36,025 nt of DNA from a virus. The stretch is taken from IMG/VR virus record IMGVR_UViG_3300036715_000321, positions 1 to 36,025 of that record; one strand, 5' to 3'. Under the pieces are notes generated by a model. It worked only from the letters and a program-made list of their open reading frames with translations. It ran no database searches and had not been told where the DNA came from. A program made the translations under genes and the position numbers. This document shows positions 31,876-34,980 of the stretch, piece by piece. Each line of letters begins with the position of its first letter. Within the stretch, counting starts at the first letter, position 1.

Positions 31876-32631
31876 ATGGCACTGCAATTCCCTAAAGCGT
31901 ACTACGACCGATCGCATGGTCGTCCTCCTATTCAGGGTCTTGCGGTTTCGCAGGAACCTGCCGTGGATCTTGAACAGGCACCAGAGCAAATCGCAAAGTT
32001 GGACTTCGCAAACTGGTTGCCTTTCGCAGCAAAGACTTACCACATAAGTCCGCGTATTGAGGATTACATTCTCAAACCGATGCCCATATGCCCCTCAGAC
32101 ATCCCCAACCGCAACGGTGTGGGCTTCCCCCTGTCTGAGTTGCTTAAATATCAACCACCTCCTATAGCACGTCAAGTGTACAAGGCGTGGACTGGCTGCC
32201 CTGTTCACCTAGAACACGACAACGAAGATCACACCAAAGCCTACGGTGTTATATTTGACACTGTGCTGACACCTATTACCGGATACGGCGATGATCGGTT
32301 CTGGAAGGTGATGGGGCTTATAGGTATTGATAAGGTAAAGCACCCAGATATTGCCCAGGAAGTGCTGACGGGGAAGATTAACACGGGCTCGATGGGGGCT
32401 ATGGCCGATTACTTTACGTGTTCTGTGTGTGGTAAGGAAGCCCACGAGAACAACTACAAGAATTGTGCCCACATATCGTCTACCAAGGACGTCAACTGGC
32501 GCATCGTGGATTTCAATGGCGAGAAACACATGGCATACCTTAATGCCCATGAACTATCCCCGATCGAGTTCTCGTTGGTTTCCACTCCCGCGTGGACTGT
32601 AGCCCTTTCTGATTATCATTTTTCTTGGTAG
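31876..32631 (+). CDS. prohead maturation protease-like protein
   Basis: A 251-residue protein resembling phage head maturation proteases. It has PVHLEHDNEDHTKAYGVIFD with H111/H114, a strand segment FWKVMGLIGIDKV, and INTGSMGAMADYFTCSVCG with candidate nucleophile S172 followed by a CSVCG...CAHI zinc-like motif. The end, HELSPIEFSLVSTPAWTV, is the usual SPxEFSLVxxPA strand. Such enzymes degrade scaffold and trim capsid proteins. Its last 17 codons are duplicated in diverged form at 33825-33881, downstream of a homing endonuclease, indicating that the original 3' end was displaced by the insertion. Confidence 0.65.
   Translation: MALQFPKAYYDRSHGRPPIQGLAVSQEPAVDLEQAPEQIAKLDFANWLPFAAKTYHISPRIEDYILKPMPICPSDIPNRNGVGFPLSELLKYQPPPIARQVYKAWTGCPVHLEHDNEDHTKAYGVIFDTVLTPITGYGDDRFWKVMGLIGIDKVKHPDIAQEVLTGKINTGSMGAMADYFTCSVCGKEAHENNYKNCAHISSTKDVNWRIVDFNGEKHMAYLNAHELSPIEFSLVSTPAWTVALSDYHFSW
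32617..32631 (+). repeat. direct repeat, upstream copy
   Basis: CATTTTTCTTGGTAG encodes the last residues HFSW and the stop of the protease. An identical 15-base copy is at 33867-33881, and the two flank the homing endonuclease gene. Confidence 0.85.
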
Positions 32632-32710
32632 GTTTAGTTAATGGACGAACGGGAGTAATTACCCTGGCCTGCTCACTCGGGCCTAGTCCACCATTTCTAG
32701 TGAGAGAGCA
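32632..32710 (+). other. spacer upstream of the homing endonuclease
   Basis: A 79-base gap with GGCC/GGCC pairing around TGCTCACTC at about 32667-32684 and GAGAGAG before the endonuclease ATG. It lies inside the inserted segment between the two protease ends. No promoter is clear. Confidence 0.3.
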
Positions 32711-33820
32711 ATGAAAGTTTCCAATAGTAGTAATAGAGATGTATTTATCCCAACATTTCTCTATGTTAAGCGTTGTAATCATTGCGGTTTACGCTACTTC
32801 GGTAAGACTACACGAGACGACCCGCACACATACCTAGGAAGCGGGGTTTATTGGCGGAAGCACTGTAGTAAGTACGGGTGGGAGCACGTAACTACGGTAA
32901 AGGTTAAACTATTTACGTCCAAGCTCGCTATCGCAAAGTCGGCATTGGAATTTAGTGTTAAGCACGATATAGTAAACGCTAGACTACCTAGTGGTAAGAA
33001 GGCGTGGGCTAACATGAAGCATGAAGACGGACTTGATGGTGGCTCAGTTCCAGGCACACTGCATAAACGTGCACGTAATAAGATGAGTAGTGCCAAGCAA
33101 GGCTTAAAATACTACTATGACCAAGAAACGCAAGTAGGTTATAGACTACTTCCCAACGATTCGCGTATCCTAGAGTTGGGATTGAGCAGGGGTAGACCAG
33201 ACGCAACACTGGATCGATTAAGTGTACTTCATCTAGGTAAACCGAAACCACTAGATGCAGTGGCTAAGATGGCTAAATCGCGCAAAGGACAACGTCCATA
33301 TAATGACGGTGTTAATTTTTTCCTAATGCGTAAGGGTGATAAGCGCATAGTAGAATGGGGATTGCGCCCAGGCTACCCGGAAGAACGTGCAGCACAGACT
33401 CGCGGCAAACTTAATGGTATGTATGGGCTAACCCATACCCAAGAAGTGCGAGATGTATTGTCTACTTACGCTAGAGAACAGTGTGGGCGCATGAATGCAA
33501 TGGACTCACCAGAAGCCAGAGCTAAAATGAGTGCTATACGTAAACTCAACAATCCGTCACGTGGAAAGAAGCCGTACAACGATGGTGTTAATTCATTCTT
33601 CCTGGACCCTAAAGATCCTAAGATTAAAAAGCGCAAACTAATTCCCGGTGTTGTGCGCTGCTGGTTTTATTTTCGAGATAGGTTAAACTCATATCACTAT
33701 AGAATGAAGAAAGACGATCCTAAAATCAAGAAACTTAAACTTGTTATGTGCAAAGATCAATCTACTTGTGGTAAGTTTCGACCAGGCCACCGAGATTATT
33801 CCGGAGAGGTAATTCTATGA
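32711..33820 (+). CDS. GIY-YIG-type homing endonuclease
   Basis: A 369-residue free-standing endonuclease. The N-terminus FLYVKRCNHCGLRYFGKTT followed by YLGSGVYWRKHCSKYG fits the GIY-YIG nuclease layout of phage Seg-like enzymes. The rest has modular DNA-binding repeats: PYNDGVN twice (near residues 196 and 290), DPKIKK-x-KL twice near 300 and 340, and THTQEVRDVLS/SPEARAKMSAI NUMOD3-like helices. It is Lys-rich and more A/T-rich than neighbours, which supports transfer. It lies between a protease 3' end and a diverged duplicate of that end, the typical signature of an intron-less homing gene that replaces part of its target. Residual GIY-YIG catalytic residues are not individually verified. 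Confidence 0.85.
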   Translation: MKVSNSSNRDVFIPTFLYVKRCNHCGLRYFGKTTRDDPHTYLGSGVYWRKHCSKYGWEHVTTVKVKLFTSKLAIAKSALEFSVKHDIVNARLPSGKKAWANMKHEDGLDGGSVPGTLHKRARNKMSSAKQGLKYYYDQETQVGYRLLPNDSRILELGLSRGRPDATLDRLSVLHLGKPKPLDAVAKMAKSRKGQRPYNDGVNFFLMRKGDKRIVEWGLRPGYPEERAAQTRGKLNGMYGLTHTQEVRDVLSTYAREQCGRMNAMDSPEARAKMSAIRKLNNPSRGKKPYNDGVNSFFLDPKDPKIKKRKLIPGVVRCWFYFRDRLNSYHYRMKKDDPKIKKLKLVMCKDQSTCGKFRPGHRDYSGEVIL

Positions 33821-33881
33821 AATAGTTGGTAAAGACCCTGCGTGGGCTATGGCGTTGTCAGATAAGCATTTTTCTTGGTAG
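33813..33881 (+). pseudogene. displaced 3' end of the prohead protease gene
   Basis: This stretch, starting in the last codons of the endonuclease, reads FYEIVGKDPAWAMALSDKHF and ends SW and TAG in an open frame without a start codon. It aligns with the protease end VSTPAWTVALSDYHFSW: PAW, ALSD and HFSW are shared. It is best seen as the original C-terminus of the protease, cut off when the endonuclease inserted and supplied a substitute end. The next gene starts one base after its stop, as expected of the ancestral arrangement. Confidence 0.8.
33867..33881 (+). repeat. direct repeat, downstream copy
   Basis: The second CATTTTTCTTGGTAG copy, identical to that at 32617-32631, at the right end of the inserted endonuclease segment. 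Confidence 0.85.
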
Positions 33882-33882
33882 C

Positions 33883-34295
33883 ATGACGCCACAATATCAA
33901 GAGTTCCTACATACAGATACAGTGCGTGGGGATTGCCAACGTGCGGTGTTGGCCTCCCTGCTTGATCTGCTTATTGGGGAAGTCCCACACTTCGCGCAAC
34001 TTTCAGCCGACTCCCCCCCCCCGATAGGGCTTATATGTTCTGGGGCGCTGCGCATGACTTCTGTGAGTTGCACGGTTACGACTACAAGCCCTACGTACTT
34101 CTTGCGTATCATCTTGAAGATGGCGTTGACCTATATCACCAGATATCCGGCCCCTCTCCGAGAGGTAGTGATCTACATCACGCTGTAGTTGGACTTAACG
34201 GTAAAGTTTTCTTTGACCCTCATCCTAGCCGAGCAGATTTAGCCGGTGACCCCTCCAAGTGGAAACACTCAATCCTTGTTGAGATAGAGAGCTAA
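33883..34295 (+). CDS. papain-fold-like phage protein broken at a C10 tract
   Basis: The ATG at 33883 opens a frame (MTPQYQEFLHTDTVRGDCQR, then ASLLDLLIGEVPHF) that goes wrong at a run of ten C at 34013-34022 and continues naturally in the frame one base back (DRAYMFWGAAHDFCELHGYD) to the stop at 34295. Removing one C fuses the two parts to ~137 residues. The restored protein has GDCxRA (candidate Cys18), SPRG...HHAVV (His) and DPHPS (Asp), the order of C39/papain-like enzymes, and matches a phage family seen widely. Read as it stands the first frame runs to 34188 with an unlikely tail. The tract could be a phase-variation switch, a natural mutation or a sequencing error. Confidence 0.7.
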
Positions 34296-34297
34296 TT

Positions 34298-34402
34298 ATG
34301 CCAGCAATTATTGGCTACAATTCTAAGGGCGTTTATAGAACCCAGAGCGCGATCTCCGCTCGGTGGTATAAGTTAGCTGGAGTGTGGATGATATTGTCAT
34401 AA
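34298..34402 (+). CDS. small hypothetical protein (34 aa)
   Basis: A 34-residue ORF beginning two bases after the previous stop: MPAIIGYNSKGVYRTQSAIS and onward. It is basic with aromatic residues. It fills the gap before the next gene's ribosome binding site GGAGG. There is no homology evidence. Confidence 0.45.
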   Translation: MPAIIGYNSKGVYRTQSAISARWYKLAGVWMILS

Positions 34403-34422
34403 TTTTATTAGTGGAGGGGTTA

Positions 34423-34980
34423 ATGGCAGCCCCTCCTAAGGGAGGACTTACAACGATGCTGCTTTCAAATCTTCACGAAACGGTTCCCGCCGGATTAACT
34501 GTAGCCCTCTACAAAGGCACCAGACCGGGTATGTCTGGTGTTATGAATAGAGTTGGTCGTTACCTAGATGACGGTAATTACTCCCACTCTGAGCTTATCA
34601 TACGTGGGCTTAGCTACTCCTCCTCCTTTGAAGACAAGGGAGTACGCGCAAAAGTAATTAACTACTCCTCTGTGGGTTGCTGGGACTTTATACCTATAGC
34701 AGACCCCGCCGGAGAGTTAGCCGCTGGCGCCTTGACGTGGTTCTACACACACATGGGCCAACCATATGACCTTTTGGGCAACCTGCATTTTGTATTTGGT
34801 TTTGTGCGCAACAGTGATGGTAGATGGTTTTGTAGTGAGTCCACCGCGGCGGCGCTAGGTTTCCACGAACCTCATCGTTACGGGCCATCTGGTCTGGCCG
34901 CAGCTATTGGTGATCGTTTCGGGTCACCCATTATTAGAATTCCAAAACTCAGAGAATATGACACACAAACCACATCCTAA
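34423..34980 (+). CDS. permuted papain-like (YiiX/NlpC-P60-type) amidase
   Basis: A 185-residue member of a phage family with a permuted papain-fold hydrolase look: VALYKGTRPGMSGVMNRVG, then NYSHSELI with H55, WDFIPI, the MGQPYDLLGN segment, and WFCSES with candidate nucleophile C137. The His-before-Cys order is the permuted YiiX/NlpC arrangement. It may be an amidase or peptidase acting on cell wall or lipid substrates. GGAGG precedes ATG 34423, which is why this start is preferred. It overlaps the following peptidase gene by 23 bases. Confidence 0.75.
   Translation: MAAPPKGGLTTMLLSNLHETVPAGLTVALYKGTRPGMSGVMNRVGRYLDDGNYSHSELIIRGLSYSSSFEDKGVRAKVINYSSVGCWDFIPIADPAGELAAGALTWFYTHMGQPYDLLGNLHFVFGFVRNSDGRWFCSESTAAALGFHEPHRYGPSGLAAAIGDRFGSPIIRIPKLREYDTQTTS

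Follow-up and report, generated by a model that had tools for sequence, protein, structure and literature searches.

A phage homing endonuclease that appears to carry a replacement end for the prohead protease gene it interrupts

Background

By the general account, free-standing homing endonucleases are confined to intergenic sites, since insertion elsewhere would disrupt genes (PMC13405050, PMC2988022). The window analysed here, i.e., the whole 36,025-nt viral fragment of IMG/VR record IMGVR_UViG_3300036715_000321, contains an endonuclease ORF placed between a prohead protease gene and a second, diverged copy of that gene's 3' end. We consider it very probable that this is a free-standing GIY-YIG homing element that carried a replacement C-terminus into the protease gene and left the native end stranded.

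Results and discussion

A duplicated gene end around an endonuclease

All features of the locus lie on the plus strand. The prohead (head maturation) protease gene (31876..32631; phrog_18299, E=8.4e-77; 62-70% identical to L009-L017 over nearly the full length) is followed by a 79-base non-coding spacer (32632..32710), the ORF of a 369-aa homing endonuclease (32711..33820), a start-less protease 3' end (33830..33881, KDPAWAMALSDKHFSW and stop) and the next gene of the native operon (33883..34295, MTPQYQEF..., a homologue of L017 3764-4159). The duplication takes the form of a 45-nt direct repeat (32587-32631 and 33837-33881, spacing 1250) whose copies are identical at 35/45 positions, against a maximum of 28/45 when the downstream 400 nt were shuffled 2,000 times, and the final 15 bases (CATTTTTCTTGGTAG, stop included) are common to both. 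It spans 15 codons with the stop, or 17 if counted from the putative junction. The upstream copy encodes PAWTVALSDYHFSW and forms the end of the protease ORF, whereas the downstream copy encodes PAWAMALSDKHFSW, sits behind the endonuclease and, in the read ...IVGKDPAWAMALSDKHFSW that ends at its stop, is out of frame with the endonuclease and lacks a start. In a stop-anchored comparison with partners swapped in from 30 other endonuclease loci the window scored 68 and the top swapped pair 18. The initial annotation had pointed to the diverged repeat with its exact 15-base end, and to a next gene starting one base after the second copy; both were confirmed, the ATG of that gene being at 33883, one base past the second stop. 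Diverged duplicated 3' ends of the target gene flanking an endonuclease ORF are the arrangement that characterizes the mORF-type elements discussed below.

The endonuclease

In Pfam, the window protein matched NUMOD3 alone (E=5.1e-6, above the gathering score; motif at aa 266-287), i.e., a DNA-binding NUMOD-type module, and in PHROGs it matched the homing endonuclease family phrog_314 (E=8.6e-6). The cut-off of the Pfam GIY-YIG profile was not reached by the window protein, and its homologue L121 matches that profile at E=0.039, below the cut-off. A full-length structural model was discarded owing to its low confidence (pLDDT 39.7) and a model of the N-terminal domain, built from an 18-sequence alignment, was used instead (nuclease domain aa 13-115, pLDDT 90.8). 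Its three top PDB matches are the I-TevI catalytic domain (1mk0/1ln0), with the GIY-YIG domains of UvrC and Slx1 ranking lower; the Foldseek values for the I-TevI matches are weak (TM 0.57-0.66, probability 0.57-0.82, E 0.3-0.8). Based on this ranking and on the motif LY(I/V)...Y(F/L)GKT, and despite the weak E-values, the model supports a divergent, I-TevI-like GIY-YIG nuclease fold for the N-terminal domain.

Native and imported copies

Family proteases were gathered from viral contigs and phage records for comparison of their ends. The proteases of relatives have a single end with the pattern [ILV]V-x-[DE]-PAW, D or E preceding PAW in 20 of 21. The downstream copy in the window reads KDPAW and scores 33.3 bits with the family profile, while the upstream copy reads STPAW, without the D/E, and scores 23.9 bits; the downstream copy, in turn, has an uncommon M. 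In L017 (~66% identical protein), the gene order is helicase, two small genes, protease with one end (SLVADPAWVVCLSDTHFNW and stop), MTPQ gene and C1 peptidase, with no endonuclease. The window keeps this order except for the endonuclease between the protease and the MTPQ gene and a 198-aa ORF (34384-34980) between the MTPQ gene and the C1 peptidase, which is not in L017. The MTPQ gene itself, intact in L017, has its frame broken in the window at ~34005-34035 (C run ~34010-34021), by either a sequencing error or a true pseudogene.

Over 51 nt, the downstream copy is nearer than the upstream one to all six compared relatives, with small margins (31/51 versus 27/51 nt for L017). Given the conserved D before PAW and the native position, adjoining the following gene as in L017, the downstream copy is best taken as the displaced native end, and its better fit to the family supports the upstream copy as the replacement brought by the element, an assignment that draws on a few residues and on position, with the nearest empty relative at ~66% protein identity. 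This is what the initial annotation had expected of uninterrupted relatives: the protease end of L017 is closer to the downstream copy, and none of those compared matched the upstream copy while lacking homology to the downstream one.

Joining 32579 to 33830 yields an in-frame, family-typical end (FSLVKDPAWAMALSDKHFSW / PIEFSLVKDPAWAMALSDKHFSW, then stop) and the empty-site sequence ...TTCTCGTTGGTTAAAGACCCTGCG..., so that excision of 32580-33829 restores an end of the regular family type, the end of the upstream-copy type being VSTPAWTVALSDYHFSW and stop. From the native/imported assignment and this family-like join, the element would extend over ~32580-33829 (1250 nt: replacement C-terminus, spacer, endonuclease and 9 nt), its first 52 bases (32580..32631, STPAWTVALSDYHFSW and stop) being the replacement protease end. 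The putative insertion point is marked by GTTGGT at the left junction (32574..32579); since GTTGGT is found again at the right junction (33825-33830), the right edge is uncertain by ~5 nt. The protease gene would accordingly be a hybrid, native to ~32579 and imported beyond. Searches of viral contigs, of genome contigs and by junction pattern revealed no further instance of the exact element.

A possible home-and-rescue mechanism

We postulate that a jumbo-phage-type prohead protease gene was invaded, 16 codons short of its stop, by an element of ~1.25 kb arranged as replacement C-terminus with stop, spacer and endonuclease. The remaining 5' portion of the gene would read in frame into the replacement C-terminus, and thus a full-length protease would still be made, with the native C-terminus left stranded behind the endonuclease. 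The earlier suggestion that the target gene stays functional is borne out as far as an in-frame end is concerned; the retained activity of the protease we infer from it. Following known homing biology, during a mixed infection the nuclease would cut the empty protease gene, and repair off the occupied genome would install the nuclease along with the replacement end. Since the target site is divided between the two ends of the element and the replacement has a different DNA sequence, a genome carrying the element should be immune to its nuclease. The replacement carries several synonymous changes (P, A, L and S codons), which fit descent from a diverged donor and would make recutting harder as well.

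Recurrence of the 3'-end form

We screened 102 nonredundant endonuclease ORFs by comparing the real end of the upstream gene with the DNA behind the endonuclease, with swapped partners as the control. Unanchored repeat scoring around endonucleases was dropped, since its background had a long tail (the controls reached 92, the window 72), and replaced by M-anchored and stop-anchored tests with swapped partners. In this larger set, both the window (68; swap maximum 22) and L139 (63; swap maximum 38) exceed every swap. The upstream gene in L139 ends with NAVPVINDEEIIAIRHMRR and stop, and directly behind the endonuclease the DNA reads NAVPVISDEEINDIARMRR and stop. A related arrangement in L183, in a gene of the same family, scores 32, with swaps that include L139 and hence are not independent. 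Both target genes belong to phrog_27048, and four relatives of this family (PhiW-14, ACP17, C48C1 and BUCT-ZZ01) have one such end in the fetched stretch. On sequence grounds, the 3'-end design is found again at a second gene, in L139 and L183. Candidate gene-end duplications in L122/L123, L128, L076 and L058 were rejected. L139 also contains, at 1082-1510, a tmRNA recognized by Rfam (beta_tmRNA E=3.5e-18; permuted tmRNA E=2.5e-15) and missed by ARAGORN.

A mirror form with replaced gene starts

In Vibrio phage SRILMA (L054, 2440-3350) an endonuclease precedes an RNase H/exonuclease gene, and the 93-96% identical phages Va1, pv27 and phiKT1024 (L116/L117/L118), which have no endonuclease, provide the exact empty site. 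In Va1 this site reads ..AGGAGGTGTCCAATTATACTTACCGATTAC|TCATCAATT.., with an apparent ATT start of MILTDYSSI; SRILMA is the same as Va1 from the ribosome site to GATTAC and then continues in frame into the endonuclease, behind which a new ribosome site and ATGATTTTAACCGACTACTCATCG.. encode MILTDYSS again in different codons. The insertion thus lies after RNase H codon 6 and comes with a recoded replacement start, and most of the divergence between SRILMA and Va1 falls within the first ~120 nt of the working gene. Judged by this comparison, SRILMA, the clearest of the mirror cases, is a near-strain-level empty-site demonstration of an element that splits a gene and supplies a recoded end. In the empty relatives the RNase H start seems to be an unannotated ATT, and the annotated starts look too short.

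Start duplications above all swapped controls are also present in L101 and L064/L102, while those of L071/L072/L097 and L077/L091 are weaker, 1 and 5 of 101 swaps, respectively, reaching them in the larger set. In all of these loci, a remnant start lies before the endonuclease and a nearly identical gene start directly after it (e.g., MKIAIIDKLG / MKIAICDSLG). These are likely to be further elements that replace 5' ends.

Alternative explanations

The exact 15-base 3' end common to both copies in the window would suit a gene end that was simply duplicated in tandem in a single lineage at the insertion of the endonuclease, both copies then diverging with no donor involved. We regard this as improbable: several of the differences are synonymous, the upstream copy is without the conserved D of the family, and the mirror case shows the pattern of a donor tract, its working copy being recoded and diverged for the first ~120 nt whereas the remnant of the native start does not differ from the empty relatives.

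Slightly less probable again is a mobile group I intron, from which 32580-33829 would be spliced out to give FSLVKDPAWAMALSDKHFSW, the upstream copy being merely a read-through end. The joined reading frame is indeed perfect and the ends are those expected of a group I intron (a U preceding it and a G at its last position), but Rfam with relaxed filters gave no match up to E=5, and folding was no better than that of shuffles (spacer z=-0.11, with flanks z=-0.82), i.e., a conserved intron core RNA was found neither by Rfam nor by folding against shuffles. Moreover, the endonuclease ORF leaves just 131+9 = 140 nt of the element, not enough to hold an intron core, and 52 of them are the duplicated coding end; that the removed intron should start with a copy of the exon is also left unexplained. 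A pseudoknot-like pairing of the upstream copy with the spacer, spotted by hand, was dropped, as folding does not beat shuffles.

A misassembly of two phage strains, or a resemblance by chance, is hardly credible, even for a metagenomic contig with a second doubtful spot nearby (the C run that breaks the next gene), since the longest exact word shared by the copies, 15 nt, falls below the usual k-mer length of assemblers, L139/L183 show this anatomy independently, and the mirror form is seen in sequenced isolates.

Comparison with known systems

The closest precedent for a carried replacement end comes from fungal mitochondria, where mORFs make hybrid genes (Glomus atp6, atp9, cox2 and nad3, Allomyces atp6, Rhizopus atp9 and Mortierella cox2) (PMC3630166). 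As in the window, a replacement C-terminus is fused to the host gene and a diverged native C-terminus lies behind the nuclease, and in Glomus atp9 even the sizes are nearly those of the window (51-nt inserted end, GIY-YIG ORF, 52-nt native end) (PMC3630166). The window differs in coming from a bacteriophage rather than a mitochondrion, in its target, a capsid protease, and in unrelated target sequences; phages, unlike the fungal mORFs, also show the 5'-end version. The initial annotation had likened the strategy to that of tRNA-targeting integrases, which holds for the restored gene end, while the fungal mORF is the nearer parallel (PMC3630166). Gene-end integrases (icd, tRNA genes, HE-PICI in cap E) likewise restore the end of their target with incoming DNA, but they are site-specific recombinases that use an identity block as crossover, whereas the window has an endonuclease and diverged copies (PMC10111431).

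Among phages, the T4 Seg family resembles the window in having GIY-YIG genes outside introns, between conserved phage genes; those genes are, however, intergenic, and their nucleases cut at a distance of hundreds to thousands of bp (PMC2988022). The window element lies inside the protease coding sequence, not between intact genes with their coding sequence untouched, and would repair the end of its target. In Aeromonas phage Aeh1, the free-standing endonuclease mobE also interrupts an important gene, nrdA, whose function is kept, but nrdA works as two separate pieces and a replacement end is not described (PMC3653736). An engineered counterpart is the home-and-rescue drive HomeR, in which, as we understand the design, a nuclease element homes into an essential gene and carries a rescue that keeps this gene working, the system being CRISPR-based and artificial (PMC7968924). 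The openly accessible literature searched yielded no phage example of an element that supplies a replacement gene end.

On balance, we lean towards the view that phages host a class of free-standing GIY-YIG elements that act as natural home-and-rescue drives, each inserting inside a conserved gene, near its start or stop, and carrying a recoded substitute for the end it cuts off. If so, endonucleases with neither intron nor intein can occupy coding sequences, and past homing would leave a genome-wide signature in the form of recoded gene ends. Together with L139/L183 and the mirror cases, the window points to another way out for phage endonucleases, i.e., carrying the missing gene end. Such elements would also explain puzzling repeats of gene ends and wrongly called starts next to phage endonucleases, bring a trick of fungal mitochondria into phages, where homing is testable in days, and offer a natural parallel to engineered rescue drives, including the evolution of resistance and recoding.

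A second kind of mobile element may occupy the same protease gene: the GCPVH/EHDN motif of a related protease gene in L038 (1462-3447) is the site of an in-frame insert that resembles an intein (C..HNC ends). Its two-part protease match was rejected as a split gene end, the insert being intein-like.
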